Shown here: piece by piece, positions 1,919 to 44,557 of the stretch
How the letters are laid out: each line of letters begins with the position of its first letter
Position numbering within the stretch: the first letter of the stretch is position 1
DNA from: an uncultured Selenomonadales bacterium
Lineage (GTDB): Bacteria; Bacillota; Negativicutes; Acidaminococcales; Acidaminococcaceae
Direction of reading: 5' to 3'
NCBI GenBank assembly: GCA_900315345.1
Contig: OMYP01000007.1
Span: 124,001 to 188,000 of the forward strand
DNA: 64,000 nt
Made by a program: the position numbers and the translations under genes
The notes under the pieces: generated by a model
What the model was told of the DNA's origin: nothing
Seen by the model: only the letters and a program-made list of their open reading frames with translations
Databases searched by the model: none

Positions 1919-1937
1919 AATTGTGAAATTTTGTAAA

Positions 1938-3587: not shown

Positions 3588-3617
3588 TAAAAAACGGAGC
3601 CGCCGAAGCGACTCCGC
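3588..3617 (-). terminator. Intrinsic terminator of porin gene 3
   Basis: CGGAG (3595-3599) and CTCCG (3612-3616), with extra inner pairing around a CGAA loop, form a hairpin followed on the minus strand by TTTTTTATT. Confidence 0.7.
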
Positions 3618-3700
3618 AAATTTTTACTGCTAACTTCTGCATTCTTGGAAAATATTTTAACAAGTATTTGCAGACGCACTATTCTCTTTTGTCTTTTAAA

Positions 3701-4990
3701 TTAGAAGCTTACGTACAGGGCACTCCACAGAACTTTATTCTTTACTTTGTCTTCGCGGCCCTTCAGATCCCAGTATTCTACGTCAGCAATCATATTCTTG
3801 GCTACAGTGTATTTAGCAGTTGCGTACCAACCTTTAGCTCCTTCACGATACAGCCCTTTCAACGCACTACTGGTTTCCCAGCCAGCTGCAACGATTCCGC
3901 CAGCAGGAGTCTGGTAGTACTTCACGCCAATTCCCCAGGAACCGGGTTTAGCAGCTTTTGCACCACCATAGCTTGCTTCTAAAACAAAGCCGTTTTTGGA
4001 TGCTCCAGCAACTGCGTCATCCAGCTTGGCATGCAGATAGGTTCCCTGGAAGAAAGCTTCTTTGGCAAACTTAAACTTCAGGCCTACGTCAAAGATCTTG
4101 TCCTTGCCATCTTCTGTTGCTACGCCAGCTGCGCCTTTGCTCGTGCCTGCAGCATAATCACCTTTGCTAATTTGGAATTCATCGTACCCAGCAAACAGGT
4201 TTACATTTTTTCCAAGATCGGCAGCAGCGTTAATGCCCCATGCTTTATTCGGTTTAACACGATTCATTTTACCATAGTCATTTGTTGCAGTTGATTTCCA
4301 GAACCCCTGAGCATTGGTCGGTTTGCCATAGTAAGCATTCAGTTTAACTTTCTTACCATAAGTGAAATCAATACCATCCATACGGGTTCCATAAATATCG
4401 CCCATGGTCAGACGGGTCTTGTTGTAACGGCCTGCTACAGTCTTCAGTCCGCCCAGACGGCCCTCTAAATAAGCGCGCTGGAAGTTAGTCGTTTCATTAC
4501 CGTCGTTATCAGTCAGGTCCTGAACATTTTCTAACATGCCAACATAATTCCAGTTATCATTTACGGTTCCAGTAAACCAGATACGGCTACGAAGATTGTT
4601 CTTATGGTCTTTTACACCATTCTGTTTCATGCTTTCATAGTTGTAACGGAACTGGCCGGTAATCTTTACGTTGTCGGATTTCTTTTCCAGTGCTGCTACG
4701 CGAACGCCCAGAGCATCCAGTTCGTCTGCGAATTCAGCAGCCAGTTTGTCAACGTTAGCGCCTTTAGCCAGAGCTTTCGCTACAATCTGAGCCATTTCAT
4801 AACGGGTCATCAGGCGGTCACCGCGGAAGGTGTCGTCGCCATAGCCTTCGATGATGCCAGCAGCAGCTAATTTGGAGATGCTGTCATAAGCCCAGTGGCC
4901 AGCCGGTACATCGCTGAAGGGGTTAGCAGCATAAGCAGAAGCGGTTACGCCCAGTGCCATAGCCATTGCTAATACTAAAGATTTTTTCAT
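3701..4990 (-). CDS. SLH-domain outer-membrane porin (OmpM-like)
   Basis: This third paralogue is complete at 429 residues. It has the same signal peptide and SLH domain as its neighbours, then an independent beta-barrel ending in ALYVSF, whose terminal Phe fits outer-membrane assembly. In the first barrel strands it is closer to the partial porin at 1-935 (both have ITGQFRY and a related RSRIWFTG stretch) than to the porin at 2024-3265. The three copies therefore look like serial duplicates whose N-termini are kept alike and whose barrels drift or recombine. It has a strong Shine-Dalgarno, its own promoter at 5179-5207, and a 33-codon leader ORF (4987-5085) whose stop overlaps the porin start codon. 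Substrates are unknown. Confidence 0.92.
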   Translation of the reverse strand: MKKSLVLAMAMALGVTASAYAANPFSDVPAGHWAYDSISKLAAAGIIEGYGDDTFRGDRLMTRYEMAQIVAKALAKGANVDKLAAEFADELDALGVRVAALEKKSDNVKITGQFRYNYESMKQNGVKDHKNNLRSRIWFTGTVNDNWNYVGMLENVQDLTDNDGNETTNFQRAYLEGRLGGLKTVAGRYNKTRLTMGDIYGTRMDGIDFTYGKKVKLNAYYGKPTNAQGFWKSTATNDYGKMNRVKPNKAWGINAAADLGKNVNLFAGYDEFQISKGDYAAGTSKGAAGVATEDGKDKIFDVGLKFKFAKEAFFQGTYLHAKLDDAVAGASKNGFVLEASYGGAKAAKPGSWGIGVKYYQTPAGGIVAAGWETSSALKGLYREGAKGWYATAKYTVAKNMIADVEYWDLKGREDKVKNKVLWSALYVSF

Positions 4991-8762: not shown

Positions 8763-9896
8763 TTATTTGCCGGCGGGTCCGATCATAGCCAGCATGGTAC
8801 CGGCTGCTACTGCAGTACCGATAACGCCTGCTACGTTGGGACCCATGGCATGCATCAGCAGGAAGTTGGCCGGGTTTGCTTTCTGGCCTACTACCTGGGA
8901 TACACGGGCTGCCATCGGAACTGCGGATACGCCCGCGGAACCGATCAGCGGATTTACTTTGCCGCCGGAAGCAATCTTCATGAACTGACCGAAAATACAA
9001 CCCATTGCAGTACCGGCTGCGAAAGCAACCAGACCTAAGCAGATAATCAGGATGGTGTCATATTTCAGGAACTTGTCTGCTTCCATGGTTAAACCGGTAC
9101 CTACAGACAGGAAAATCGTTACGATGTTCATCAGCGCGTTCTGTGCGGTGTCGCTCAGACGGTCCAGGCAGCCAGCTTCCTTATACAGGTTGCCCAGCAT
9201 CAGCATACCGATCAGGGAGCATACGGGAGGCAGCAGCAGGGAAATGAAAATCGTGGAGAAAATCGGGAAAATGATACGTTCAAACTTGGTTACCGTACGC
9301 AGCTGGTCCATTTTGATTTTCCGGTCCGCTTCACTGGTGCACAGCATCATGATAGGAGGCTGGATCAGTGGAACCAGGGACATGTAGGAGTAAGCTGCTA
9401 CTGCGATAGCGCCCAGCAGATGGGGAGCCATCTTTACGGTCAGGTAAATAGCCGTCGGGCCGTCAGCGCCGCCGATGATACCGATGGCAGCTGCTTCACG
9501 CAGGTCAAAGCCCAGCAGCATGGCGCCGATCAGAGCTACGAACACGCCGCCCTGGGCAGCAGCGCCCAGCAGCAGGGTCTTCGGGTTGGCGATCAGGGGA
9601 CCGAAGTCGGTCATGGCGCCAACGCCCATGAAAATCAGCGGAGGGAATACTTCGTGGTTGATACCGTACAGGATTACCTGCATTACGCCAGGATCGGTGG
9701 TAAAGCCGGTCTTGGGGATGTTGCCCAACAGGCAGCCGAATGCGATGTTGGACAGCAGCAGAGGTTCAAAACCTTTGCCGATAGCCAGGTAGAGCAGAAC
9801 TAAGCCTACCAGGAGCATGATTACGTTGCCGCTGGTCATGCCTTCGAAGCCGGAGTCATTCCATACGGACTGTAATGATACGATAAGTGCGTCCAT
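8763..9896 (-). CDS. Sodium-pumping decarboxylase beta subunit, copy 1
   Basis: This 377-residue membrane protein belongs to the OadB/MmdB/GcdB family. In such complexes it receives carboxybiotin from the carrier subunit, releases CO2 and drives Na+ out of the cell. The protein is hydrophobic with about nine or more membrane segments and carries the family motif [10 protein letters not shown] and the repeat-like [16 protein letters not shown] near the C-terminus. It differs from the copy at 27064-28197 at only about ten positions (for example MDALIV versus MEALIV). The start at 9896 has GAGG just upstream and matches the paralogue; an upstream in-frame extension to 9947 is not supported. Only the other copy lies in an operon with alpha, carrier and delta subunits, so this one probably supplies extra beta subunit for the same complex. 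Confidence 0.9.
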
Positions 9897-10110
9897 AATT
9901 ACGTCCTCGTTTCTTTCATTAGTTTGCCCGGAAAGCCGGCGCCACATTGGGGCGTCACGCTTTCTGCATTAAATAAAGACATGGGGTCCAGCAATCAGTT
10001 TACTTTTTAAAATGCCTGCTGGCTGCATTTTAAAAGCCTGCAACTGCAAAACTCCGGAAAACGCCGATCAAATAAATTCGTTCAAATAATTTCATCCGCG
10101 ATTCCATTAA

Positions 10111-10146
10111 ATCCGGCCGCCGCCTGTGAGACCACGGCGACCGGAT
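10111..10146 (-). terminator. Hairpin downstream of DASS copy 1
   Basis: ATCCGG-CGCCG (10111-10122) pairs with CGGCG-CCGGAT (10135-10146). No strong T-run follows on the minus strand, so this may be a weak terminator or a processing hairpin between the transporter gene and the beta subunit gene. The rest of 9897-10178 holds no gene. Confidence 0.45.
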
Positions 10147-10178
10147 AAAACTTTTAAACCTTAATCAAATGGTCCCTA

Positions 10179-11484
10179 TCATCCCGGGAAGAAAGGCCAG
10201 AACATAGGAATCAGTACTACGGATACGATGAAGCATACGATTACCAGACCGGTACCGGCTTTCACGTAATCCATGAACTTGTATCCGCCAGGGCCTAACA
10301 CCAGAGTGTTAGGAGGCGTACCTACCGGAGTCGCAAATGCGCAGGATGCTGCAACAGCGATTGCCATCAGAACTGCGTGCGGGGAAGCACCCAGCTGTTT
10401 GGAAATAGCAATGCCGATGGGGCACAGCAGCGCTGCAGACGCCGTGTTGGACATGAACTGGGTCAGGCCGCAGCTCAGGATGAACAGTACGATGGTAACT
10501 ACCATCGGGGACGGGGAACCGCCCATGATACCTACTGCCCATTCTGCGATTACTTTGCCTGCGCCGGTTTTATCCATTGCAGAGGATACAGGCATCATGC
10601 CTGCAAATAGGAAAATCGTTACCCAGTCGATGGAAGCATAAGCCTGTTTTTCAGTTAAGCAGCCGGTCAGTACGCAAACGATGGCGCCGATGATGGCTGC
10701 CATTTCCAGGGTGATGCCTTTGATGCCCAGGGCCATGGTCAGTACTACTGCTAACAGGATCACGCCGGAAACGACCATCTTGCTAGAAGAAGTTTCGTTA
10801 GCTTCGATTTCCTGCTCGATTTCCTGATCCGCATCCAGTTCCCGTTTCGGGATCAGGTGCTTACCTACGAACATCATGTAAACCAAAGCAGCCAGGGTCA
10901 GAGGAATACCGATCTTTGCGAATTCAAAGAATCCGAAAGCACGGTAGCCGGCCTGTGCCAGAGCGCCGGATGCAATGATGTTAGGAGGCGTACCTACCAG
11001 AGTGATGATACCGCCAACGCCGCAGGCGAATGCCAGAGGCATCAGTTCGGTAGAAGCAGGGATCTTTGCTGCTGCGCACACGCCCAATACTACAGGCAGT
11101 TGCTGCTGCGCACACGCCCAATACTACAGGCAGTAAGCAGGCAGCTGTACCGGTGTTGGACAGTACGGAGGATAAAGCCGCGCCAACCAGCATGATGCCA
11201 ATCATCAGGCTGTTTTCACCGGTACCGGTGAATCTAACAACAGTTTCGCCGATTCTCTGAGCCAGGCCGGTGTAGAACATTGCTGCACCTACAACGAACA
11301 TGCCGGCAAACAGAACAACGGTGGAGTTGGACAGGCCGCTGAATACCTGTTTTGCGGGGATAAATCCCAGCAGGCCGCAGGCAATCGCGCCAGCCATAGC
11401 AGTAACCGCCAAAGGAATGATTTCAGTAACAAAGAATAAGGCGATTACTGCGAGAAGGATAAGACACTTTGTGGATTGAGCCAT
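10179..11484 (-). pseudogene. DASS/SLC13-type dicarboxylate transporter, broken by 34-bp tandem duplication
   Basis: The intact gene would encode a 423-residue divalent-anion:sodium symporter, the family that imports succinate and related acids. A 34-bp unit is present twice in tandem (11066-11099 and 11100-11133); removing one copy gives exactly 1272 bases in one frame. As it stands, the N-terminal reading frame (from ATG 11484) leaves the frame after the first SNT signature (SNTGTAACLLPVV), and the C-terminal 300 residues, with the second MSNTASAALL signature and two TPPN motifs, lie in another frame. Both substrate-binding hairpins are therefore separated. The start has an AGGAG site. It sits directly upstream of a decarboxylase beta gene, pairing Na+ export with Na+-driven uptake. 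It could be a true lesion, a reversible switch or an assembly error between two near-identical genes. Confidence 0.88.
11066..11133. repeat. 34-bp perfect tandem duplication
   Basis: The same 34 bases occur twice in a row. Since 34 is not a multiple of three, the duplication shifts the reading frame of the DASS gene. Confidence 0.95.
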
Positions 11485-25525: not shown

Positions 25526-26718
25526 TCAGCCGGGGAAGAAAGGCCAGAACATAGGAATCAAAATCAGGGAGATTACGAAGCAAACGATTACCAGACCGGT
25601 ACCTGCTTTTACGTAGTCCATGAATTTGAATCCGCCGGGGCCTAATACCAGGGTGTTAGGCGGCGTGCCTACCGGGGTAGCGAATGCGCAGGATGCTGCA
25701 ACGGCGATAGCCATCAGAACGGCTGCCGGATCAGCGCCCAGCTGTTTGGAGATTGCGATACCGATCGGGCACAGCAGAGCTGCGGATGCCGTGTTGGACA
25801 TGAACTGGGTCAGGCCGCAGGACAGGATAAACAGTACGGCGGTAACTACCATCGGGGACGGGGAACCGCCCATCAGACCTACTGCCCATTCAGCGATAAC
25901 TTTGCCGGCGCCGGTCTTGCTCATAGCAGAAGATACGGGCATCATGCCGGCGAACAGGAAAATGGTTACCCAGTCGATGGAAGCATAAGCCTGTTTTTCA
26001 GTTAAGCAGCCGGTCAGTACGGAAACGATAGCGCCGGTGATGGCGGCCATTTCCAGTGTAACGCCTTTGATACCCAGAGCCATGGTCAGAACTACGGCTA
26101 ACAGGATGATACCGGAAACAGCCATCTTCGTGGAAGAAGTTTCGTTAGCTTCAATTTCCTGTTCAACTTCCGTATCTTCGGAAATCGTACGTTTCGGTAA
26201 CAGGTGTTTGCCGATGAACATCATGTAAATCAGGGCTGCCAGGGTCAGAGGGATACCAATCTTCGCGAATTCAAAGAATCCGAAAGCGCGGTAGCCGGCC
26301 TGTTCCAGAGCGCCGGATGCGATGATGTTAGGAGGCGTACCTACCAGGGTGATGATACCGCCAACGCCGCAGGCGAATGCCAGAGGCATCAGTTCGGTAG
26401 AAGCAGGGATCTTTGCTGCTGCGCACACGCCCAATACTACAGGCAGTTTTCACCGGTACCGGTGAATCTTACAACGGTTTCACCGATTTTCTGAGCCAGG
26501 CCGGTGTAGAACATTGCTGCGCCTACAACGAACATACCTGCGAACAGAACAACGGTGGAGTTGGACAGGCCGCTAAATACCTGTTTTGCAGGGATAAATC
26601 CCAGCAGGCCGCAGGCGATAGAGCCAGCCATAGCAGTAACTGCCAGAGGAATGATTTCGGTAACGAAGAATAAGGCAATTACGGCTAACAGAATAAGACA
26701 CTTTGTGGACTGAGCCAT
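25526..26718 (-). pseudogene. DASS/SLC13-type dicarboxylate transporter, broken by 79-bp deletion
   Basis: This second copy of the Na+:dicarboxylate transporter lacks 79 bases present in the paralogue (11134-11212 there). The junction is at about 26446/26447, inside the first substrate-binding hairpin. Adding 79 bases gives exactly 1272 bases, the same 423-residue length as the repaired copy 1. The N-terminal frame ends after 93 residues just past FTGTGEN; the C-terminal ~300 residues (TELMPLAFACGVGG... TPPN, MSNTASAALL, TPPN) are open but out of frame. Outside the lesion, the copies are close, differing mostly in a cytoplasmic loop (KRTISEDTEVEQE versus KRELDADQEIEQE). An extended -10 promoter and a hairpin leader lie upstream. 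Whether the loss is real, reversible or an assembly artefact is open. Confidence 0.88.
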
Positions 26719-26751
26719 TATATAACTCCTCCTCTTTTAAAATTTATATCG

Positions 26752-26792
26752 AGCGTACGGCCTAATACGCAGCGGGCAGTGTTCCGTACGCT
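26752..26792 (-). promoter_or_regulatory. Leader hairpin of DASS copy 2
   Basis: A perfect 9-bp stem AGCGTACGG (26752-26760) with CCGTACGCT (26784-26792) encloses a 23-base loop in the leader. No T-run follows. It could affect stability or control. Confidence 0.45.
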
Positions 26793-26830
26793 TAATATAC
26801 AACTATGGAATTCTCAAGGTTCTTGGCATT

Positions 26831-26839
26831 ATTATAGCA
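26831..26839 (-). promoter_or_regulatory. Extended -10 promoter of DASS copy 2
   Basis: The minus strand reads TGCTATAAT with TATAAT at 26831-26836. The leader is about 110 bases. The rest of 26840-26979 holds no gene. Confidence 0.55.
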
Positions 26840-26979
26840 CTACTTTTCAAATTTTAAAAGTATGTATGACACAATTTTGCCACATTTTTTGAAAACCCAT
26901 TTTCATTGAAAAAGACGAACGTCTTTTCCCGACAAACTTTTCGATTTGTCAATACCCAATACGGGCAACTGAATCATTC

Positions 26980-27032
26980 TTTAAAAAAGCCTGTTCCGAA
27001 TGAACGATATGAACATTCAGAAACAGGCTTAT
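26980..27032 (-). terminator. Terminator of the propionate operon
   Basis: AAGCCTGTTCCGAATG (26987-27002) pairs with CATTCAGAAACAGGCTT (27014-27030) with one mismatch region, followed on the minus strand by CTTTTTTAA. It is about 35 bases past the mmdB stop. Confidence 0.8.
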
Positions 27033-27063
27033 GGTACTAAAGACTACTTGCCGGAAATGCTAA

Positions 27064-28197
27064 TTATTTGCCGGCAGGTCCGATCATAGCCAGCATGGTG
27101 CCCGCTGCAACAGCGGTACCGATAACGCCTGCTACGTTGGGGCCCATAGCGTGCATCAGCAGGAAGTTGGAAGGATTAGCCTTCTGACCTACAACCTGGG
27201 ATACACGGGCAGCCATCGGAACGGCGGATACGCCGGCCGAACCGATCAGCGGATTTACCTTGCCGCCGGAGGCAATCTTCATGAACTGACCAAAAATACA
27301 ACCCAGCATAGTACCAGCTGCGAAAGCTACCAGGCCTAAGCAGATGATCAGGATGGTGTCATATTTCAGGAACTTGTCTGCTTCCATGGTTAAACCAGTA
27401 CCTACAGACAGGAAGATCGTTACGATGTTCATCAGCGCGTTCTGTGCGGTGTCGCTCAGACGGTCCAGGCAGCCGGCTTCCTTATACAGGTTGCCCAGCA
27501 TCAGCATACCAATCAGGGCGCATACCGGAGGCAGCAACAGGGAAATGAAAATCGTGGAGAAAATCGGGAAAATGATACGTTCAAACTTGGTTACCGTACG
27601 CAGCTGGTCCATTTTAATGGCACGGTCGGCTTTGCTGGTGCACAGCGTCATGATAGGAGGCTGGATCAGCGGAACCAGGGACATGTAGGAGTAAGCTGCT
27701 ACTGCGATAGCGCCCAGCAGATGGGGAGCCATCTTTACAGTCAGGTAAATAGCGGTCGGGCCGTCAGCACCACCGATGATACCGATGGCAGCTGCTTCAC
27801 GCAGGTCGAAGCCCAGCAGCATAGCGCCGATTAAGCATACGAATACGCCGCCCTGGGCAGCAGCGCCCAGCAGCAGGGTCTTCGGGTTGGCGATCAGGGG
27901 ACCGAAGTCAGTCATGGCGCCAACGCCCATGAAAATCAGCGGAGGGAAGATTTCGTGGTTGATACCGTACAGGATTACCTGCATTACGCCAGGATCAGTG
28001 GTAAAACCTGTCTTGGGGATATTGCCCAACAGGCAGCCGAATGCGATGTTGGACAGCAGCAGAGGTTCGAAACCTTTGCCGATAGCCAGGTAGAGCAATA
28101 CTAAGCCTACCAGGAGCATGATTACGTTGCCGCTGGTCATGCCTTCGAAACCGGAGTCATTCCAAACGGACTGGAGAGATACAATCAGAGCTTCCAT
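27064..28197 (-). CDS. mmdB: Methylmalonyl-CoA decarboxylase beta subunit (Na+ pump), copy 2
   Basis: This 377-residue beta subunit closes the propionate operon. It takes the carboxyl group from carboxybiotin, decarboxylates it and exports Na+. The [10 protein letters not shown] motif, the [19 protein letters not shown] segment and multiple membrane helices match OadB/MmdB/GcdB. It is about 97% identical in sequence to the copy at 8763-9896. The gene follows the biotin carrier gene with a 128-base gap. The start at 28197 has AGGAC upstream and equals the family start. The assignment to methylmalonyl-CoA rather than glutaconyl-CoA or oxaloacetate rests on the operon with mutase and epimerase. 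Confidence 0.93.
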
Positions 28198-29178: not shown

Positions 29179-30711
29179 TTATACCGGGAAATTGCCATGG
29201 CGTTTTGCCGGACGGCTCTCACGTTTGGTTTCCAACATATGCAGGGCGCTGATAACTGCCGGACGGCTGTTCTTCGGCTCGATAATGATATCTACCATGC
29301 CGCGTTCAGCTGCAATGTACGGAGTAGCGAATTTATCAACATATTCTGCGGTGCTCTTCTTCTGGGTTTCCGGATCCTGTTTCTTGAAGATGATGTTGGC
29401 AGCGCCAGCAGGTCCCATAACTGCGATTTCAGCAGTCGGCCAAGCGATAACCTGGTCTGCGCCCAGTTCCTGAGAGCACATTGCCAGATAAGAACCGCCG
29501 TAAGCTTTACGGGTAACCAGAGTAATCTTCGGAACAGTAGCTTCGGAGTATGCATACAGCATCTTTGCGCCGTGACGGATGATTCCGCCGTATTCCTGTA
29601 CGGTGCCGGGCAGGAAGCCAGGTACGTCTACCAGGTTCAGGATAGGAATGTTGAATGCGTCGCAGAAGCGAATGAAGCGGGAGGATTTATCGGATGCGTT
29701 GATATCCAGGCAGCCTGCCATAACTTTCGGCTGGTTAGCAATGATACCTACGGTCTCGCCGTCCATACGTGCGAAGCAGGTGATGATGTTCTGTGCCCAG
29801 TATTTCTGGTTTTCATAGAATTCACCATTATCAACGATGGCTTTGATTACATCGTACATATCATATGCTGCATTGCTGTTGTCCGGGCAGATGCTGTTCA
29901 GGGATTCTTCCGTACGGTTCGGATCATCGCCGGTATCAACGATCGGAGCGGTTTCCATGTTGTTGGAAGGCAGGAAGCTTAACAGATAACGGATCTGCTG
30001 GATGCAGTCAGCGTCATCTTCAGCAGCGAAGTTCGCAACGCCGGAACGGGAGTTGTGGGTCATAGCGCCGCCCAGCTGTTCCTGGGTAACTTCTTCGCCG
30101 GTAACGGATTTAACAACCGCAGGTCCGGTGATAAACATTTTGGAGGTTTCTTTTACCATGTAGATGAAGTCGGTCAGGGCCGGGCTGTAAACAGCGCCGC
30201 CTGCGGACGGTCCCATGATAGCGGAAATCTGGGGGATAACGCCGGAGGAAATGGTGTTGTTAAAGAACAGTTTGCCATAGCCGCCCAGTGCGTCGATTGC
30301 TTCCTGGATACGAGCTCCGCCGGAGTCGTTCAGGCCAATGCACGGAGCACCCATTTTCAGGGCCAGTCTCTGAACTTTGGCAATTTTGTTGGCATGCATT
30401 TCACCCAGGGAACCGCCTTCAACGGTGAAGTCCTGTGCAAATACATAAACCAGACGACCATCTACTGTGCCGTAACCAGTGGTTACGCCTTCACCAGGCA
30501 GGTCTTTCTTTTCCTGGCCGAAGTTGGTGCAACGATGACGAACGAAGCGGTCCAGTTCTACGAAGGAACCTTCGTCCATCAGGGCAGCAATTCTTTCGCG
30601 GGCGGTCATTTTGCCTTTTTCATGCTGTTTTTCAACAGCCTTCGGGCCGCCGCCACCCAGAATTACTTCGGACTTTTTGAGCATTTTCTCAATTCTTTCT
30701 TGAGTAGTCAA
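29179..30711 (-). CDS. mmdA: Methylmalonyl-CoA decarboxylase alpha subunit (carboxyltransferase)
   Basis: The 510-residue enzyme moves the carboxyl group of (S)-methylmalonyl-CoA to biotin on the carrier subunit, giving propionyl-CoA. It is a full-length two-domain crotonase-like carboxyltransferase with an N-half motif FAQDFTVEGGSLGEMHANKI, the acyl-CoA pocket SGGARIQEA, and a C-half DVPGFLPGTVQEYGGIIRHGAKMLYAY. Related subunits occur in propionyl-CoA carboxylase; the absence of a biotin carboxylase in the operon favours decarboxylation. A stable hairpin (30763-30787) separates it from the epimerase gene. Confidence 0.95.
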   Translation of the reverse strand: MTTQERIEKMLKKSEVILGGGGPKAVEKQHEKGKMTARERIAALMDEGSFVELDRFVRHRCTNFGQEKKDLPGEGVTTGYGTVDGRLVYVFAQDFTVEGGSLGEMHANKIAKVQRLALKMGAPCIGLNDSGGARIQEAIDALGGYGKLFFNNTISSGVIPQISAIMGPSAGGAVYSPALTDFIYMVKETSKMFITGPAVVKSVTGEEVTQEQLGGAMTHNSRSGVANFAAEDDADCIQQIRYLLSFLPSNNMETAPIVDTGDDPNRTEESLNSICPDNSNAAYDMYDVIKAIVDNGEFYENQKYWAQNIITCFARMDGETVGIIANQPKVMAGCLDINASDKSSRFIRFCDAFNIPILNLVDVPGFLPGTVQEYGGIIRHGAKMLYAYSEATVPKITLVTRKAYGGSYLAMCSQELGADQVIAWPTAEIAVMGPAGAANIIFKKQDPETQKKSTAEYVDKFATPYIAAERGMVDIIIEPKNSRPAVISALHMLETKRESRPAKRHGNFPV

Positions 30712-30762
30712 GTTTTGACACCTCCATAAATTATTGGGAGAACTTATTTTTATATATTACAC

Positions 30763-30787
30763 CCCGCCCGTATTTTTGACGGGCGGG
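30763..30787 (-). other. Intercistronic hairpin between epimerase and mmdA
   Basis: CCCGCCCGT (30763-30771) pairs with ACGGGCGGG (30779-30787). There is no T-run, so it looks like an mRNA processing or stability element rather than a terminator. Confidence 0.55.
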
Positions 30788-30829
30788 TAATGTAATCAGA
30801 AAAACATACAAACCGATATATCTCTTAAA

Positions 30830-31249
30830 TTAAGCTTTGTGGGGAGTGCAGAGCTCTAACAGGATGCCGACAGATTTCGGATGAACAAAAGCGATATCCA
30901 TTCCGCCAGCGCCGCCGCGAGGTGCTTTGTCGATCATTCTGCCGCCTTTTTCCTGTACGTCAGCAATAGCAGCTACCAGATCGTCAACCAGCAGAGCTAC
31001 ATGCTGGATGCCCTGGCCGTTCTTGGCAATGTATTTGCCGATAGGGCCGTCATTGTTTTCGGTGATGTCTACCAGCAGTTCGATTAAGTTCGGACCGCAT
31101 TTAATAAATACAGTTTTTACACCCTGTTCAGGTACTGCTTCTTCACCGGTGCATTCCAGGCCCAGAACATCCGTATAGAATTTCTTGGAAACATCCAAAT
31201 CCTGGCAGGCAACACCAATGTGATCAATCTTCGATACTGTAAATGCCAT
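30830..31249 (-). CDS. mce: Methylmalonyl-CoA epimerase
   Basis: The 139-residue enzyme interconverts (R)- and (S)-methylmalonyl-CoA between mutase and decarboxylase. It belongs to the vicinal oxygen chelate (glyoxalase) fold: metal ligands are visible in KIDHIGVACQDL (His), the central GIQHVALLVDD (His) and the C-terminal GILLELCTP (Glu). Size and motifs match known epimerases. It is between meaB and mmdA. Confidence 0.95.
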   Translation of the reverse strand: MAFTVSKIDHIGVACQDLDVSKKFYTDVLGLECTGEEAVPEQGVKTVFIKCGPNLIELLVDITENNDGPIGKYIAKNGQGIQHVALLVDDLVAAIADVQEKGGRMIDKAPRGGAGGMDIAFVHPKSVGILLELCTPHKA

Positions 31250-31297
31250 AATGAATCTCCTCCTAATAAAATAAATTATTTATTTTAAGGCACCGAC

Positions 31298-32239
31298 TTA
31301 TTTGAGCACCTTAGAAACGATAGTATCCACCACAGTGTACGGTTCAGTTTCCCTGCGCTGCAGCTTTTCGATAGTTTCATCAAATTCAGCTGTACGAACC
31401 ACGTTCTTATCTATATAACGGTTAACCCTAACGTTGACCATATCCGTAACCTCGGATTTGATCCGTGCTCTGCGGATATCAGTCAGTTTGCCGGTTTCGG
31501 TCAGGAACTTCTGATGAGCCAGAATGGAATCAACAACCTCTGCAGTTCCCTGATCCTTGCTGGCAATCGTACGATTGATAGGAGGACGCCAGCCGGCATT
31601 TTTCTCGTTGTTTAACTCCAGCATCATTTCCATTTCAATATTCAGTTTATCAGCGCCTTCCCGATCAGCTTTGTTGATCGTGAGTAAATCGCCGATTTCA
31701 AGAATACCTGCTTTAATAGCCTGGATATCGTCACCCATTCCCGGGATAACTACTACCATCGTGGTATCTGCCGTTTTTACAATGTCTACTTCTGACTGAC
31801 CTACGCCGACAGTTTCTACCAGGATAATATCCATGCCGAATGCATCCATCAATTTAACGGCATCGCCGGCTTTCTGGGATAAACCACCCAGACTTCCGCG
31901 AGTCGCCATTGAACGGATAAAAATTCCGGAATCCATCATCAGATCCATCATCCGGATACGGTCGCCCAAAATGGCACCGCCGGAATACGGGCTTGTGGGG
32001 TCGATGGCAACAATGCCAACCGTTTTTCCGCGCCTGCGAAATTCTTTTGCGATCTTATCGGTCAATGTAGATTTACCAGCACCGGGAGGCCCTGTAATAC
32101 CAATTACATATGCATGCCCCGTGTGTGTGTAAATCTTGGTCATTATATCAACTGCATTATCATATTCGTTTTCAACTGCTGTAATGCCTTTGGAAAGTGC
32201 AAGACGATTATGCTTCAAAATTTCTTCTACAATGTCCAT
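31298..32239 (-). CDS. meaB: MeaB/ArgK-type G3E GTPase, mutase chaperone
   Basis: The 313-residue GTPase loads and protects the B12 cofactor of methylmalonyl-CoA mutase. The P-loop GPPGAGKST is at about residues 50-58, and the DPTSPYSGGAILGDRIRM, ETVGVGQSE and NKADREGADK motifs follow. It lies immediately downstream of the mutase small subunit and upstream of the epimerase, the usual genetic link. Confidence 0.94.
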   Translation of the reverse strand: MDIVEEILKHNRLALSKGITAVENEYDNAVDIMTKIYTHTGHAYVIGITGPPGAGKSTLTDKIAKEFRRRGKTVGIVAIDPTSPYSGGAILGDRIRMMDLMMDSGIFIRSMATRGSLGGLSQKAGDAVKLMDAFGMDIILVETVGVGQSEVDIVKTADTTMVVVIPGMGDDIQAIKAGILEIGDLLTINKADREGADKLNIEMEMMLELNNEKNAGWRPPINRTIASKDQGTAEVVDSILAHQKFLTETGKLTDIRRARIKSEVTDMVNVRVNRYIDKNVVRTAEFDETIEKLQRRETEPYTVVDTIVSKVLK

Positions 32240-32279
32240 AGCTTTTTATCACACCGCCTTGTTGATAATAGTTATGAAA

Positions 32280-32312
32280 GATGCAAGCCGGGTTCTAGCC
32301 CGGTCTTGCATC
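32280..32312 (-). other. Intercistronic hairpin between mutase small subunit and meaB
   Basis: GATGCAAG and CTTGCATC (32280-32287 and 32305-32312) with inner CCGGG/CCCGG pairing form a stable stem. Only TTTC follows on the minus strand, so it may be a leaky attenuator. Confidence 0.5.
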
Positions 32313-32330
32313 TTAGATTTTAAGAAGGAA

Positions 32331-32720
32331 TTACTTTACGTTAGCGTTGATGAAGTCAACAACTTTGCTGGTCGGGGTGCCAGGGGTAAATACTTCAGCA
32401 ATACCAGCAGCCTTCAGGCCAGGGATATCAGCATCAGGAATTACGCCGCCGCCGATAACCAGAACGTCGGTCATGCCTTTTTCTTTCAGCAGTTCAACAA
32501 CTTTCGGGAACAGGGTGTTGTGAGCGCCGGACAGCAGGCTCAGAGCAACAACATTAACGTCGTCCTGCAGAGCAGCTTCAGCAATCTGTTCGGGGGTCAG
32601 ACGAATACCAGTGTAGATAACTTCAAAACCAGCATCGCGCAGAGCACGAGCTACAACTTTTGCACCACGGTCATGTCCATCCAGGCCCGGTTTAGCAACT
32701 AATACTTTAATGTTAGCCAT
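32331..32720 (-). CDS. Methylmalonyl-CoA mutase small subunit (B12-binding)
   Basis: The 129-residue protein is a free-standing cobalamin-binding domain. The DxHxxG motif is visible as D14-G-H16-D-R-G19; His16 is the lower axial ligand of the cobalt. The [11 protein letters not shown] loop follows. Together with the large subunit it forms the mutase that converts succinyl-CoA to (R)-methylmalonyl-CoA. The split into catalytic and B12 proteins is like some archaeal and clostridial-type enzymes. It follows the large subunit gene by 35 bases. Confidence 0.94.
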
Positions 32721-32754
32721 TTCTATATACCTCCGTTATTTGCTTTAATGTAAA

Positions 32755-34401
32755 TTATAATGCGGTATGAGCTTTGTATTCGCCAAATACCTGACGCATT
32801 ACGCCGCAGATTTCGCCTTCGGTTGCATACGCTTCAACAGCGTCCAGAATCAGCGGAACCAGGTTAACGCTTTCGTCAGCGCAGGCAGCCTTCAAGGCAG
32901 CCAGGGTAGCTTCAACTTTAGCGTTGTCGCGGGTTGCTTTTACTTTGGCAATCTTTTCAGCCTGCAGTTTGCCTACGGAACCGTCTACGCGCAGCAGGTT
33001 TTTCGGAGGTTCTTCTTCCTGGGTGAATTTGTTAACGCCAACGATGATACGACGGCCAGCTTCGATATCCATCTGCCATTTGTAAGCGGAATCCTGGATT
33101 TCTTTCTGGATGTAGCCCTTAGCAATAGCTTCCGGAGCGCCACCGATTTCGTCGATCTTCTGGATGTAATCCCAAGCTTCTTTTTCGATCTTGTTGGTCA
33201 GAGCTTCTACATAGTAGGAGCCGCCCAGCGGGTCGATGGTATCAGCCAGGCCAGATTCGTAAGCAACGATCTGCTGAGTACGCAGAGCGATGGTAACGGA
33301 TTCAGTGGTCGGCAGAGCCAGAGCTTCGTCCTTGGAGTTGGTGTGCAGGGACTGGGTGCCACCCATAACAGCTGCTGCAGTCTGTAAAGCAACACGAACG
33401 ATGTTGTTGTTGGGCTGCTGAGCGGTCAGCATGGAACCAGCGGTCTGAGTGTGTACACGCAGCATCATGGATTTAGCTTTCTTAGCGCCAAAGCGTTCTT
33501 TCATAACTTTAGCCCATACGCGACGGGAAGCACGGAATTTAGCAACTTCTTCCAGTACGTTGTTATGAGCATTCCAGAAGAAGGACAGACGGCCGGCAAA
33601 AGCGTCAACGTCCATACCAGCTTTGATAGCAGCTTCTACATAAGCGATGCCGTCAGCGATGGTGAATGCGATTTCCTGAGAAGCGGTGGAACCAGCTTCA
33701 CGGATGTGGTAACCGGAAATGGAGATGGTGTTCCATTTCGGAACGTATTTGGCGCAATATTCAAAAATGTTGGTGATCAGACGCATGGAAGGCTTCGGCG
33801 GGAAAATGTAGGTGCCGCGTGCAGCATATTCTTTCAGAATATCGTTCTGAATGGTGCCGCGCAGTGCGTCAGAGGGAACACCCTGTTTCTTAGCAACAGC
33901 AATGTACATGCACAGCAGTACGGATGCCGGAGCGTTGATGGTCATGGAGGTGGAAACTTTGTCCAGGGAGATCTGGTCAAACAGGATTTCCATATCTGCC
34001 AGGGAGTCGATAGCTACGCCTACTTTACCAACTTCGCCTTCAGCCATCGGATCGGTGGAATCATAACCGATCTGGGTCGGCAGGTCGAATGCGCAGGACA
34101 GGCCGCTGCCACCGTTAGCTAACAGGTAACGATAACGTTTGTTGGATTCTTCAGCAGTGGAGAAACCAGCATACATACGCATGGTCCAGAATTTACCACG
34201 GTACATGGTCGGCTGTACGCCACGGGTGAAGGGATATTCTCCAGGAAAGCCGAGGTCTTTTTCATAATCAAAGCCTTCGATATCCAGAGGGGTATACAGA
34301 CGATTGGGTTCCAGGTGTGCACGTTCCGGGAATTTGGCGCTGGCCGCATCAGCTTTCGCCATGTACGCATCAAATCCCGCTTTCAGAGTTTCATTTGCCA
34401 T
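32755..34401 (-). CDS. Methylmalonyl-CoA mutase large (catalytic) subunit
   Basis: The 548-residue catalytic subunit has the TIM-barrel mutase domain, with [43 protein letters not shown], the [10 protein letters not shown] stretch and [16 protein letters not shown]. It lacks the C-terminal B12 domain, which is encoded by the next gene. I chose the start at 34401 ([10 protein letters not shown]), with AAGGAGG eight bases upstream; the longer reading to 34530 is leader sequence. A 236-base structured gap separates it from the CoA-transferase gene. Confidence 0.94.
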
Positions 34402-34637
34402 TCTCAAATCCTCCTTAAAATTAAAAATATAAATTTTTTCACAATGCAGATTGGACAGTTCCGCATCGCGGTGAGAGTGTCCGTCAGAGACGGTTTTTAT
34501 GGCAAGATCCGCAAGGGATCGAGTCAACAATCATAATTGGACAGTTATGATTTGGGGATGGGGCCGGTCACCGACCCCATCCGATACCATATTGTAAACT
34601 ATTTTACACAATAATTCAAGCTTTTACTGAATTATTT
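34402..34637 (-). promoter_or_regulatory. Structured intercistronic leader of the mutase gene
   Basis: The gap contains a stem GGATGGGG/CCCCATCC (34556-34563 with 34575-34582), AATCATAA/TTATGATT (34529-34536 with 34545-34552), CCGT/ACGG (34481-34484 with 34490-34493) and the repeated 10-mer TTGGACAGTT at 34451 and 34537 (plus-strand reading). No T-run follows the largest stem. It is much longer than the other gaps in this operon. Confidence 0.45.
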
Positions 34638-36176
34638 TTATTCAGCCGGTTTTTCCATGGAGCCGGTCTCTTCGAACCATTTGTAAACGTCAAACGCTTC
34701 AGACAGGATATGCGGGGTCTGGCTGTTGCCGCATTTCTCGCATGCTCTCTTGAAGTAGTCGTACAGGTACGGCTGATATTTCGGGTTAGCGATCTGATCG
34801 ATGATGATCGGAGCTTTTTCTTTCGGGGTCAGGCCGCGCAGGTCGGCAACGCCGCGTTCGGAAACGATAACGTCAACGTCCAGGGTTGCATGGTCGATAT
34901 GGCTGCAGAACGGAACAACAGAGCTGATCTTGCCGCCCTTTGCCAGGGAGTTGGTGAAGAATACGGTCAGATAGCCGTTACGCGCGAAGTCGCCGGAACC
35001 GCCAACACCGTTCATCAGCTTGGTGCCGCATATGTGGGTGGAGTTTACGTTGCCGTAAATATCAACTTCGATAGCAGTGTTCATAGCGATTACGCCGATA
35101 CGACGGGCAACTTCCGGGCTGTTGGAAATTTCCTGCGGACGGAGCAGCAGATATTTCTTATAGAAATCAACGTTTTCGTAGAATTTCTTCTGGCATTCCG
35201 GAGACGGAGTCAGAGCGGTACCGGAAGCAACACGGAGCTTGCCGGCGTCGATCAGGTCGAACATGCCGTCCTGGATTACTTCGGTATAAACGGTCAGGTC
35301 TTTGAAGTCAGAGTTAACCAGACCATTGATAACCGCGTTGGCTACGGAGCCTACGCCGGACTGTAAGGGCAGCAGGTTCTGGGGCAGACGGCCTTCCTTA
35401 ACTTCGTTCTTCAGGAAGTTAACCAGGTTCTGGCCCATATGTTTTGCGTCTTCGTCGATTTCGCCCAGAGGACGAACTTTATCGGTGATATCGCAGGGAA
35501 CAACGGCTACGATCTTATCCAGGTCGCAGGGGATATAGGGAGTACCGATACGGTCTTCCGGTCTTTCGATAGGAATCGGTTTACGGTTCGGAGGATCCAG
35601 AGGAACATAGGAGTCATGCATGCCTTCCAGGGCTACCGGCTGGGTGGTGTTAACTTCTACGATTACTTTCGGAGCGGTAGCTACATAAGAGGAGCTGTTG
35701 CCCATGGAGGTGGTGGGGATCAGACCTACTTTGCCATCGCCCAGGTCGTTGATCTTGCACACTTCAACGATAGCGAAGTCAATTTTTTTGCGGTCAGCCA
35801 TGAAGCCGTAACGGGCCATCTGTGCAAAATGGGACAGATGGATGTCAGCATAGCGAACTTTGCCCGCATTGATAGCTTTACGCAGGGTAGCATTGGTCTG
35901 GTAAGGCAGACGGCGGTCCATGCAGCCGGCCTCAACCATGGCAGCGTCGATTTCCGGACCTACAGACGCGCCGGTCCAAACATTAACTTTAAAGGGAGTT
36001 TTCTTTGCTTTTTCAGCCAGAGCCAGAGGAACCGCTTTCGGATAGCCGGACGGAGTAAAGCCGCTGACGCCCAGGCAGTCACCGTCTTTAATCATTTCCG
36101 CAGCTTCTTCAGCAGTTTTAAATTTGCAAACTACTGACTCACACACACGATCTTTGATGTCTTCAAAACCTACCAT
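34638..36176 (-). CDS. Propionyl-CoA:succinate CoA-transferase (acetyl-CoA hydrolase/transferase family)
   Basis: The 512-residue enzyme most likely moves CoA from propionyl-CoA to succinate, closing the cycle of succinate fermentation. The protein is full length for the family; the catalytic Glu lies in AIEVDIYGNVNSTH, followed by GVGGSGDFARNGYL which builds the oxyanion/CoA site. The start at 36176 (MVGFEDIKDRV) has AAGGAGG eleven bases upstream; a reading to 36254 would include non-coding leader. It is the first gene of the propionate operon, downstream of an extended -10 promoter at 36327. Succinate as acceptor is inferred from the operon; acetate is possible. Confidence 0.9.
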   Translation of the reverse strand: MVGFEDIKDRVCESVVCKFKTAEEAAEMIKDGDCLGVSGFTPSGYPKAVPLALAEKAKKTPFKVNVWTGASVGPEIDAAMVEAGCMDRRLPYQTNATLRKAINAGKVRYADIHLSHFAQMARYGFMADRKKIDFAIVEVCKINDLGDGKVGLIPTTSMGNSSSYVATAPKVIVEVNTTQPVALEGMHDSYVPLDPPNRKPIPIERPEDRIGTPYIPCDLDKIVAVVPCDITDKVRPLGEIDEDAKHMGQNLVNFLKNEVKEGRLPQNLLPLQSGVGSVANAVINGLVNSDFKDLTVYTEVIQDGMFDLIDAGKLRVASGTALTPSPECQKKFYENVDFYKKYLLLRPQEISNSPEVARRIGVIAMNTAIEVDIYGNVNSTHICGTKLMNGVGGSGDFARNGYLTVFFTNSLAKGGKISSVVPFCSHIDHATLDVDVIVSERGVADLRGLTPKEKAPIIIDQIANPKYQPYLYDYFKRACEKCGNSQTPHILSEAFDVYKWFEETGSMEKPAE

Positions 36177-36326
36177 AATTTTACCTTCCTCCTTAAATAT
36201 ATTATGAGAAATTTTCCGCGGCTTGCCGCGGGTAAAACAAACTTGGTTCCGCAAACCCCGTATCTAAATTTACGGAAACAAGGATTTGCCGGTTCAGCAA
36301 AATGAAAACCTTTTGCATTCACAGCT

Positions 36327-41792: not shown

Positions 41793-42062
41793 TCCTGCTG
41801 CATTTCTGCAGCAGGACGAATTACCGCGGTACCACCTGCATTCTTTACTGTATAATCCTGAGTAAAGCTCTTCATTTCCACATAACGCGTGTCCCGGAAA
41901 GGCTTACGCATATGAATGGCAGTTCCTCCCTCCACACTTCAGCCTTTCAGCTCCAGGGCTACCTTCCGACATTCCGGCCAGGCGATTCCCACCATTCTCG
42001 CCCTCTCTTCCGGTCTTCCTGCCGTACTCCTCCCATTCACAGCTTTTCATTTAAAATTGTAC
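41793..42062 (-). promoter_or_regulatory. T-box riboswitch leader of valS
   Basis: On the minus strand the T-box core AGGTGGTACCGCGG lies at 41824-41837, and the terminator stem TCCTGCTGCA/TGCAGCAGGA (41793-41802 with 41807-41816) with a T-run follows. Stem I is closed by GAATGG/CCATTC (42033-42038 with 41914-41919). A GTG triplet (41935-41937) follows GAA opposite AGTA, a possible Val specifier. Uncharged tRNA-Val would favour read-through into valS and folC. Confidence 0.9.
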
Positions 42063-42068
42063 CTGTTT

Positions 42069-42097
42069 AGTTTATCAACCGATGACTTCACTGTCAA
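42069..42097 (-). promoter_or_regulatory. Promoter of the valS T-box operon
   Basis: TTGACA (42092-42097), 17 bases and TAAACT (42069-42074) on the minus strand. Confidence 0.75.
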
Positions 42098-42197
42098 GGA
42101 ATTTTTTCAAATTTTTCTTATTTACGCCAATGCCTTTGCCATGCGGCGAAGCCGATGCTAACTGGCGTTAGCCCATGTTAACCCCTGAAAATTCCTA

Positions 42198-42226
42198 TTG
42201 ACAATTTGATTTCATGGCCTTATCAT
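42198..42226 (+). promoter_or_regulatory. Promoter of the CDF exporter gene
   Basis: TTGACA (42198-42203), 17 bases and TATCAT (42221-42226). The leader to the start at 42411 is about 180 bases. Confidence 0.75.
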
Positions 42227-42287
42227 TGTCGTTAATATCCGGAAGGCATTCTATTTCCACTGCCTCTACCTGTATTTGCCTTTTACT

Positions 42288-42357
42288 GAAAAAGCGTCAG
42301 GCGCAAGAAGAAAACAGCCCGGCGCACGCTGCTTTTTCTCTCAGGTACTGGCAGCGT
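42288..42357 (+). promoter_or_regulatory. Attenuator-like leader of the CDF exporter gene
   Basis: GAAAAAGC (42288-42295) can pair with GCTTTTTC (42331-42338), a terminator-like stem with its own T-run. The segment ACGCTGC (42326-42332), partly in that stem, can instead pair with GCAGCGT (42351-42357). The two folds exclude each other. The ligand, if any, is unknown. Confidence 0.4.
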
Positions 42358-42410
42358 CCGGCGTACGCAGCATCATAAAACGCCCCAAACTTTTTAAGGA
42401 GTGTTTTTTT

Positions 42411-43400
42411 ATGAACAAATTGCACGTTACCTCTAATCGCGAAAACATTGCCATGCGTATTTCCTGGTACAGTATCGCCGTAAACGTTTTCCTGTCACTG
42501 GGGAAATTCGTGGCCGGTATTTTCGGCCATTCGGCAGCCATGGTTTCCGACGCCATCCATTCCGCCTCCGACGTATTCGCAACTTTTATCGTCATGGCCG
42601 GCATCAAGGTTTCCGGCCGGGCATCCGATGAGGATCACCAGTACGGCCACGAACGGTTGGAATGCGTGGCCTCCATCCTGCTGGCTGTAATTCTGGGACT
42701 GACCGGTTTGGGAATCGGTTACTCCGGCATTGATAAAATACTGAACCAGGACGCCTCTTCCCTTGCAGTTCCCACCTTTCTTCCGTTAGCTGCGGCAGTC
42801 GTATCCATCCTGGTAAAAGAAGCCATGTACTGGTACACCCGCCACTATGCCCTGCTTTTGGAATCCGACGCACTGATGGCAGATGCCTGGCATCACCGGA
42901 GCGACTCCCTTTCTTCTATCGGCAGCTTCATCGGCATTTTAGGCGCACGGCTGGGCTTTCCTGTGCTGGATCCCATCGCCAGCGTAGTAATCTGCCTGAT
43001 GATCCTGCAGGCCGGATACGAAATCTTTAAAGGCGCCATCGACAAGATGGTGGACAAAGCCTGTTCCAAAGAGGAAGAAGATGCTATGCGGGCGAAAGTA
43101 GAATCGATCCCCGGCGTTTATCATATCGACCTGCTGCACACCCGTCAGTTCGGCAACCGCATCTTTGTAGACGTAGAAGTCAGCGCTGATGACAGCCTGA
43201 CACTGCTGCAGTCCCATCAGATCGCCGAAAGCATCCACCATTCCATTGAACAGGATTTTCCTAACGTCAAGCACTGTATGGTACATATCAACCCCATAAG
43301 CGAGGTATCCCACGAATGCTTCAATCCGGGAATCCTTCGTACAAAAAACCAGGAACACGGGAACCAGTCAGTCAGGACAAAACAAAAGATAGTCATTTAA
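42411..43400 (+). CDS. Cation diffusion facilitator (CDF) metal exporter
   Basis: The 329-residue protein exports divalent metals in exchange for protons. It has six membrane segments and both CDF metal-site motifs: HSAAMVSDAIHSASD (about residues 39-53) in helix 2 and ADAWHHRSDSLSS in helix 5. A cytoplasmic C-terminal domain with CDF fold ends in KHCMVHINP. Metals may be Zn, Co, Mn or Fe. The start at 42411 has AAGGAG ten bases upstream, then an odd run of seven T directly before ATG; an upstream in-frame start at 42276 lies in the leader. The gene is alone on the plus strand, facing an opposed transcript from 43791-43819. Confidence 0.93.
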   Translation: MNKLHVTSNRENIAMRISWYSIAVNVFLSLGKFVAGIFGHSAAMVSDAIHSASDVFATFIVMAGIKVSGRASDEDHQYGHERLECVASILLAVILGLTGLGIGYSGIDKILNQDASSLAVPTFLPLAAAVVSILVKEAMYWYTRHYALLLESDALMADAWHHRSDSLSSIGSFIGILGARLGFPVLDPIASVVICLMILQAGYEIFKGAIDKMVDKACSKEEEDAMRAKVESIPGVYHIDLLHTRQFGNRIFVDVEVSADDSLTLLQSHQIAESIHHSIEQDFPNVKHCMVHINPISEVSHECFNPGILRTKNQEHGNQSVRTKQKIVI

Positions 43401-43427
43401 TCAGCGGTTCCTTAACAAAATAACGCA

Positions 43428-43468
43428 AATAAAAAACCCGCATGGTCCAGATGCGGGTTTTTTATTTG
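43428..43468 (+). terminator. Terminator of the CDF exporter gene
   Basis: AAAAAACCCGCAT pairs with ATGCGGGTTTTTT (43452-43464); both sides have T/A runs so it can act in both directions. Confidence 0.85.
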
Positions 43469-43569
43469 CAGCTGTGTCAAAAGGAGAAGGAGAAGGATGG
43501 GAATTTTGCTAAATGATTTGTGAATAGCAAACTAAACATATCAATAATATTTCGCCCTGCAAGTAAAAG

Positions 43570-43785
43570 GATAAGACCGTTCCTGCTTTCGCAACAACGG
43601 TCTTGATATCGTTCACTGGCGCCTCCCCACTCTCACCTAGAAAGGCACTTCATGTCAAACATCGCAACCCTGTCGCTCGCAGGTTAAGCACGGATGCTTA
43701 TACAGTCCGCCTTCCGGTTGTACGGTGACGGGATCACATCGGAATTGCACCGATTTAACGAACTGCACGAAATATTTATTTGATG
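43570..43785 (-). ncRNA. Orphan cobalamin-riboswitch-like RNA
   Basis: A transcript on the minus strand starts at a consensus promoter and contains a core resembling the B12 riboswitch: CGGTGCAATTCCG (within 43738-43755), the CCCGTCACCGTA segment, and a GGAAGGCGG segment, enclosed by CAGTTCG/CGGACTG. ACCTGC further on recalls the B12 box but is not a full match. It ends in a hairpin AAGACCGTT/AACGGTCTT (43573-43581 with 43596-43604). No gene on the minus strand follows; valS starts 1.7 kb away after its own promoter. Read-through would make antisense RNA to the CDF gene. Confidence 0.5.
43573..43604 (-). terminator. Terminator-like hairpin of the orphan riboswitch-like RNA
   Basis: AAGACCGTT (43573-43581) pairs with AACGGTCTT (43596-43604), followed on the minus strand by ATCCTTTTAC. 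Confidence 0.6.
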
Positions 43786-43790
43786 GTTTA

Positions 43791-43819
43791 ATTATAACGA
43801 TTCCTATTAAGCTTGTCAA
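43791..43819 (-). promoter_or_regulatory. Consensus promoter of the orphan RNA
   Basis: TTGACA (43814-43819), 17 bases and TATAAT (43791-43796), a perfect promoter on the minus strand, downstream of the engB stop codon. Confidence 0.82.
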
Positions 43820-43866: not shown

Positions 43867-44523
43867 TTACGCTTCCACATTCACTTCAGAACCAGCTTCA
43901 AGCCGCTTCATGATGCAGTTGATAAAATTCAGCCGCATAGTCGGCTGGGGTACAGAATAGGCTGTAATCCGTTCATCTGAAAGATTCAGCGCTTTCCTAA
44001 ATGCAGCCAGCTGTGACATGGCTGCATTTTTACTGATCTTATCTGCTTTAGTCAGCACTACATGTACATCAAGACCGCACTGTAACAGCCAGTTATACGC
44101 TTCAACATCACTGTCCATCAAATCATGCCGTATATCGATAAGCTGGCATACCAGCGCCAGATTCGGCGCGTCCTCAAGATAATTGCGGATAAATCCCGAC
44201 CACTGCTCTTTATTTTTACGGTTCGTACGGGCGAAACCGTAACCGGGAAGATCCACCAGATAAAACTGTGTCCTGTCTTCTGCCTGCTCCGTCGTCCGTT
44301 TTGCTTCCAGTTTATAAAAATTCAGCGTTTGTGTCTTACCGGGCGAAGAACTGACCCTGGCCAGACCGTTGCGGCGGCAGACCGAATTGATCAATGAAGA
44401 TTTTCCGACATTAGAACGCCCGATAAATGCTACTTCAGGCAAATACGGTTTGGGGTACTGGTCCGCACGGACTGCAGAAGTTACAAACTCCGCACGGATA
44501 ACATCCCAGTGTTCTTTGGTCAT
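43867..44523 (-). CDS. engB: Ribosome biogenesis GTPase YsxC/EngB
   Basis: The 218-residue GTPase helps assemble the large ribosomal subunit. G1 is GRSNVGKSS, followed by SSPGKTQTLNFY, DLPGYGFA and TKADKIS, all typical. I chose the ATG at 44523, with AGGAGG five bases upstream; the GTG two codons earlier overlaps the ribosome-binding site. It follows lon and the FAD protein, the widespread lon-engB neighbourhood. Confidence 0.94.
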   Translation of the reverse strand: MTKEHWDVIRAEFVTSAVRADQYPKPYLPEVAFIGRSNVGKSSLINSVCRRNGLARVSSSPGKTQTLNFYKLEAKRTTEQAEDRTQFYLVDLPGYGFARTNRKNKEQWSGFIRNYLEDAPNLALVCQLIDIRHDLMDSDVEAYNWLLQCGLDVHVVLTKADKISKNAAMSQLAAFRKALNLSDERITAYSVPQPTMRLNFINCIMKRLEAGSEVNVEA

Positions 44524-44557
44524 GGGCACCTCCTGTTTTGTATTGTAAAATAGCTTT

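Follow-up and report, generated by a model that had tools for sequence, protein, structure and literature searches.

The window, by which we mean the whole 64-kb stretch of DNA analysed, carries on its minus strand what is probably a stand-alone small-RNA gene under the control of a cobalamin (B12) riboswitch, the long form of which would act in trans. The gene consists of a promoter, an aptamer core, a first terminator (T1), a long-range helix (P1) between the 5' end and the sequence beyond T1, a CU-rich tail and a second terminator (T2); this arrangement is conserved among relatives and no gene follows in cis.

The gene lies downstream of the EngB/YsxC GTPase gene (43867..44529, minus strand), a neighbour kept in all members of the genus. 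Its sigma-70 promoter, TTGACA-17-TATAAT at 43791..43819 (minus strand), matches the consensus at 12 of 12 positions and was the best among 9 promoter-like sites in 3 kb. All 31 homologues, excluding one chance match, have TTGACA at the -35 position and either TATAAT or TACAAT at the -10 position. The spacer motif of the window promoter, TTAATAGGAAT, is similar in the homologues and in a second, riboswitch-less unit of the same genome described below. Similar, dyad-like spacer motifs (e.g. CTATTAGTAATAG) recur between -35 and -10 in the promoters that drive the second unit, the methylmalonyl-CoA mutase leaders and, in several genera, the RNA itself, which suggests a shared operator. Control of this spacer through a Fur box was not supported for most promoters, the window's included, the match being no better than shuffled there; a few Phascolarctobacterium promoters scored well.

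The cobalamin (AdoCbl-like) aptamer core was placed at 43657..43785 (minus strand) on the basis of covariance-model scores, homologues and covariation. Of the two cobalamin riboswitch families considered, both from Rfam clan CL00101, RF01482 (AdoCbl) scored the window copy at 29.4 bits (E = 0.0088 in 2.5 kb; gathering score 50), about equal to the best B12 riboswitches of the same genome under this model (30.6 and 30.2 bits). The genome encodes three clear B12 riboswitches elsewhere (109, 51 and 35 bits). With RF00174 the window copy reached 16.7 bits, below the cut-off of 31.5, and the orphan core was absent from the list when the 64-kb window was scanned at Rfam gathering scores, whereas homologues in other genera exceeded the RF00174 cut-off with 38.6, 31.9 and 31.6 bits. 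The core segments GGUG-AA--CC and CCCG(U/C)C-C-GU and the hairpin CCUGCG-G-GACAGG are unchanged or almost unchanged across the 23 aligned sequences, and the helices covary. Syntenic relatives that pass RF00174, together with the covarying alignment, largely remove the doubt over the sub-cut-off window copy, and cobalamin would be the expected ligand of the orphan RNA to judge from its sequence.

To quantify the covariation, we scored 57 base pairs on 23 distinct aligned homologues. Paired bases occupied 95.7% of the cells, as compared with about 40% in a slid control in which the partners were shifted by 1-3 columns. Changes on both sides were found at 29 pairs, and none of 500 shuffles of the 23 homologues was equally good, although kinship of the sequences inflates such shuffle statistics, a fault from which the slid control is free.

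For the search among the family genomes, we used a pattern that combined the RNA core with the loop of an accessory hairpin (H2), and a reversed-pattern control gave no matches. A pattern scan over 84,980 species yielded 32 matches, of which 31 were in Acidaminococcaceae and one (L072) was discarded as a chance match inside a coding sequence. The orphan RNA gene was present as a single copy in all 14 genomes of the genus (Succiniclasticum) and in 32 of 59 Acidaminococcaceae genomes, the family of Succiniclasticum ruminis, which is among the closest named relatives of the window genome. The nine genomes of genus g28 contained neither B12 riboswitches nor the orphan RNA nor ANTAR proteins, and no match to the RNA was found in the plasmid collection.

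Hairpin H2 (43605..43663, minus strand), defined by alignment and covariation, carries the near-invariant loop GGUGAGAGUGG at 43627-43637; the loop GUGAGAGUGG is nearly invariant in the 23 homologues. The cis-acting B12 riboswitches that were read in these genomes showed neither H2 nor its loop, and no known motif was recognised in the loop, which might make a tertiary contact, bind a protein or serve as a site for a second ligand. Hairpin T1 follows at 43573..43604 (minus strand), and its U tract is weak in Succiniclasticum and strong in Phascolarctobacterium. The perfect promoter, the B12-riboswitch-like core and the terminator hairpin of a preliminary description of this DNA were thus all recovered, the last of them as T1 with a weak U tract in the window, for which reason B12-dependent termination in Succiniclasticum is uncertain.

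Directly 3' of T1 lies a conserved segment, GCRGGNCGAAAUAUU, with complementarity to the RNA's 5' end. In the window, the strands of the resulting helix P1 are AAATATTTCG at 43768..43777 and CGAAATATTA at 43545..43554 (both minus strand), the latter being conserved despite its position after T1, and an outer ATCAA at 43780-43784 pairs together with the 5' strand to the region after T1. The mean pairing energy was -15.8 kcal/mol for cognate strands, -13.1 kcal/mol for non-cognate strands and -6.3 kcal/mol for shuffled strands. Three of the ten P1 pairs showed changes on both sides, and the helix forms when the window RNA is folded without constraints. Only in L067 was P1 pairing found to be weak. 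Because the sequence beyond T1 is conserved, a function of the read-through RNA is the best explanation.

About 100 bases separate T1 from T2. This tail contains the unpaired CU-rich stretch AAAATTCCCATCCTTCTCCTTCTCCTTTTGAC (43476..43507, minus strand), for which we propose a role as anti-Shine-Dalgarno seed and of which 18 nt are identical in the second unit. Tail sequences differ between genera; exact complements of at least 6 nt to the Shine-Dalgarno sequence AAAGGAGG were found in 18 of 24 tails as compared with 16% of shuffles. A further seed match in contig 9 of genome G009 was set aside since it looks like chance, the surrounding sequence being GC-rich and without resemblance to the RNA gene. 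Terminator T2 (43424..43470, minus strand), which was overlooked in the first reading, lies between T1 and the stop codon of the neighbouring gene for a CDF cation exporter. It is very strong, with a 20 bp stem and the loop CTGGACC, and occurs in all 24 distinct copies, though the downstream gene varies. Its near symmetry implies that it probably ends the CDF transcript too, from the other side. A recurrent hairpin with the heptaloop C(C/U)GGACA or CUGGACC was observed in the tails or T2 of several genera and in methylmalonyl-CoA mutase leaders (L038, L060); this hairpin is T2 in Succiniclasticum and a separate hairpin in Phascolarctobacterium.

Cobalamin riboswitches normally act in cis, and the RNA might accordingly do so too, controlling a short gene or peptide in the tail that has escaped annotation. 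We consider this hardly credible: no minus-strand open reading frame of at least 40 amino acids is present between 43655 and 43396, species-specific indels break the frames in the tail, and T2 comes directly after. The absence of a following minus-strand gene had been pointed out before and was confirmed, the next element on that strand being the T-box of valS at 42049. This T-box leader spans 41809-42049 (minus strand) and scored 114.6 bits.

The CDF exporter gene itself (42411..43400, plus strand; Pfam Cation_efflux) is in our reading a convergent neighbour rather than the target. It ends at 43400, about 170 bases beyond and in the opposite direction as earlier described, and in 14 of 14 genus genomes the RNA has EngB on one side and the convergent CDF gene on the other. 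Elsewhere in the family the surroundings differ. The CDF gene is convergent downstream of T2 not only in Succiniclasticum but also in L067 and Phascolarctobacterium faecium, while in L077, L082 and L090 other convergent genes come first and then the CDF gene. A RidA-like gene on the same strand, with a promoter-like sequence of its own, is found downstream in L064, L069 and their relatives, an AroQ-type gene follows the RNA in L083, and the CDF gene is located upstream on the same strand as the RNA in L073 and L084. Downstream neighbours in other family members include RidA, AzlCD, ChrA-like and AroQ genes, among others. These names were read from translations, except that CDF and EngB were identified by tblastn and Pfam. 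Since the unit is retained as a whole next to changing neighbours, no role in cis, be it sense or antisense, is conserved.

These observations bear on the model of the preliminary description, in which an antisense RNA like AspocR acts on the convergent exporter, with a link to cobalt, and likewise on transcription interference with that gene. The RNA is indeed convergent with and adjacent to the CDF gene throughout the genus and in two other lineages, and the gene probably encodes a Ni/Co exporter because NiCo riboswitches above the Rfam cut-off precede the orthologous genes in four relatives (L037, L038, L039 and L043). The cobalt link was in this way supported indirectly, from the relatives; no NiCo riboswitch was detected before the window CDF gene in 42040-42430, up to an E value of 1. 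The antisense part of the model was not supported. The long RNA would terminate at T2, 24 bases ahead of the CDF stop codon, and its overlap with the CDF transcript would be the T2 hairpin only. Pairing of the RNA tail with the CDF start region was poor (-8.2 kcal/mol, the median of 86 genes being -13.6 kcal/mol), and other members of the family have a CDF gene that either is not adjacent to the RNA or precedes it on the same strand. We therefore regard control of the exporter by this route as improbable.

A different origin is suggested by the situation in P. faecium, where a cis riboswitch and the mutase operon are located just upstream of the orphan copy, such that both riboswitches flank the operon beside the CDF gene, and where CTGGACA or CCGGACA loops and CU-rich stretches are common to the leaders. 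The orphan RNA could on these grounds be a duplicated leader of the methylmalonyl-CoA mutase operon, left over and without function. However, the RNA has kept its promoter and both terminators across 8 genera and shows compensatory changes, which points to selection and makes such a relic very improbable.

According to the small-RNA model, transcription from the RNA's own promoter would produce an RNA starting with the cobalamin aptamer. With B12 bound, transcription would stop at T1 and give a short RNA of about 215 nt; with B12 scarce, the polymerase would continue to T2 and give a long RNA of about 360 nt. In this long form, the 5' end would be locked by P1 to the sequence after T1, leaving the CU-rich tail free to pair, probably with Hfq, to the Shine-Dalgarno regions of distant mRNAs and to repress them. 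We infer the direction of the switch by analogy with Rli55/EutX and AspocR, in which B12 shortens the RNA (PMC5821096, PMC8079631). Features of an Hfq-type small RNA are present, namely an unpaired seed, an intrinsic terminator and Hfq in the genome, the protein being encoded in all 14 genomes of the genus. FsrA-like small RNAs of Gram-positive bacteria have an unpaired C/U-rich seed directed against the Shine-Dalgarno sequence, followed by an intrinsic terminator, and are controlled by transcription factors. The RNA described here is similar in its CU-rich seed and terminator but differs from them in that the seed is placed behind a B12 riboswitch.

Natural candidates for the targets would be B12-dependent enzymes. 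Among the 86 genes of the genome that entered the comparison, the best partner of the tail was the start region of mutB, a subunit of methylmalonyl-CoA mutase (-27.6 kcal/mol), in a set that was not random since the mutase operon had been fetched deliberately; the seed of the second unit likewise ranked mutB first. Against shuffled tails, the mutB pairing gave p values of 0.012 for this genome, 0.02-0.04 for its close relatives, 0.23 for a divergent congener and 0.59 for P. faecium. Although it ranks first of 86, the pairing is not conserved, being no better than shuffled in the divergent relatives, and we treat mutB as no more than a lead.

The mutase operon of the same genome (L060, 13590-13062, minus strand) has a B12 riboswitch that scored 109 bits, behind which comes a leader of some 530 nt containing further hairpins and CU-rich stretches. 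A second methylmalonyl-CoA mutase-type cluster (mutase, MeaB, carboxyltransferase and CoA transferase) is located within the window at 29182-36254 (minus strand), where no B12 riboswitch was detected at Rfam cut-offs. Repeated genes in the window, all on the minus strand, are three tandem near-identical genes at 3-4990 that begin with MKKSLVLAMAMALGVTASAYA and encode SLH-like surface proteins, and a pair of membrane transporter genes in two near-identical copies at 8766-11484 and 25529-28197.

The second unit mentioned above was identified in the same genome (L062, G000:C13; also L171; 344..164, minus strand). It has a TTGACA-17-TATAAT promoter with a similar spacer, a small 5' hairpin, an identical AATTCCCATCCTTCTCCTT and an identical T2 core, CCCGCATCTGGACCATGCGGG; aptamer, H2 and T1 were absent. 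The tail match has an E value of 4e-11 at genome scale, whereas the promoter match alone has one of 0.06. Next to the unit are a minor-tail gene of the NlpC/P60 type, which is split, and an IS91-like transposase together with a tyrosine recombinase, and these phage-tail and IS91-like neighbours place it in a prophage-like or mobile region. It was found in this genome only; close relatives have the seed once, in the main RNA. Its composition suggests that the tail and T2 constitute a module that may work alone, as expected of a base-pairing small RNA.

The main rival to this interpretation is a protein sponge of the kind known from Rli55 and EutX, in which hairpins of the long form would bind an ANTAR response regulator and hold it at low B12. 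An ANTAR protein is encoded in all 32 genomes with the RNA, and the nine g28 genomes lack both; the regulator in the window's genome has a PdtaS-like kinase partner. Furthermore, a hairpin with the hexaloop AGGGGU, which fits the ANTAR rule of A1 and G4 (PMC3369931), precedes T2 in many Phascolarctobacterium copies and is also present in the mutase leader of P. faecium. The co-occurrence of protein and RNA is weak, however, because 14 family genomes have ANTAR proteins and no RNA. The Succiniclasticum RNA contains neither an AGGGGU hairpin nor a position-conserved ANTAR dual hairpin, and the riboswitch-less unit has retained the CU-rich seed, not ANTAR-type hairpins. Sequestration of an ANTAR protein is therefore, in our judgement, unlikely. 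CsrA sponging through GGA loops was dismissed, CsrA being absent from 14 of 14 genomes.

Base pairing by the tail, our preferred reading, would set the RNA apart from the B12-controlled RNAs already described. Rli55 of Listeria and EutX of Enterococcus are non-coding genes with their own promoter, a B12 aptamer, a terminator and a functional 3' part, and they occur without a target gene in cis and in either orientation (PMC5821096). Judged by its anatomy, the RNA is like them in that a free-standing B12 aptamer is followed by a 3' part and no cis gene. In Rli55/EutX, however, the 3' part consists of an ANTAR dual hairpin, with A1 and G4 in each of its two hexaloops, that sequesters EutV, whereas here it comprises the CU-rich seed, T2 and the long-range 5'-3' helix; the dual hairpin was not found in Succiniclasticum, and many Phascolarctobacterium copies have the single AGGGGU hairpin. 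AspocR (Rli39) of Listeria monocytogenes is transcribed from a B12 riboswitch opposite a convergent neighbour, as a short RNA with B12 and a long one without (PMC8079631). At about 1,400 nt it covers pocR, whereas T2 would end the RNA described here after some 360 nt, short of the neighbour's coding sequence, and the neighbour differs among lineages. The resemblance to AspocR suggested in the preliminary description thus extends to an orphan B12-riboswitch-like transcript with a logic comparable to that of the Listeria RNAs, and not to antisense coverage of a neighbour, since T2 precedes the CDF gene. Antisense-acting riboswitch candidates form a computational class located at the 3' ends of convergent genes, with cobalamin among the enriched families (PMC9943018); no mention of Phascolarctobacterium or Negativicutes was found in a search of that study's main text, and convergence with the exporter is here confined to some lineages. 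The RNA resembles AspocR and Rli55/EutX in logic and is a member of neither family. No earlier description of it was found in a search of the open-access literature that was not exhaustive.

We tentatively propose, as a possibility that goes further than the small-RNA gene itself, a new family of base-pairing small RNAs controlled by B12 riboswitches in succinate-fermenting Acidaminococcaceae, which may shut down the translation of B12-dependent enzymes (e.g. methylmalonyl-CoA mutase and possibly others) at low B12 and whose seed module may have been copied without the switch into a prophage-like region. It is nearly always the attached gene that a riboswitch controls, and few act via a separate small RNA; to our knowledge, the examples under B12 control come from Listeria, Enterococcus and Streptococcus. 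Small RNAs under B12 riboswitches are known as such; this one differs from them in build and lineage and probably also in its mode of action. If the model is correct, it would represent an independent case in another lineage, with another architecture, comprising a helix that ties the 5' end to sequence beyond the terminator, an extra hairpin whose loop is near-invariant, and a CU-rich seed. The cultured relative P. faecium DSM 14760 (locus L091) makes the model testable. Succiniclasticum and Phascolarctobacterium are common in the rumen and gut and live by fermentation of succinate to propionate, a process that needs B12, and a B12-responsive small RNA would tie the supply of the vitamin to the core energy metabolism of these bacteria.
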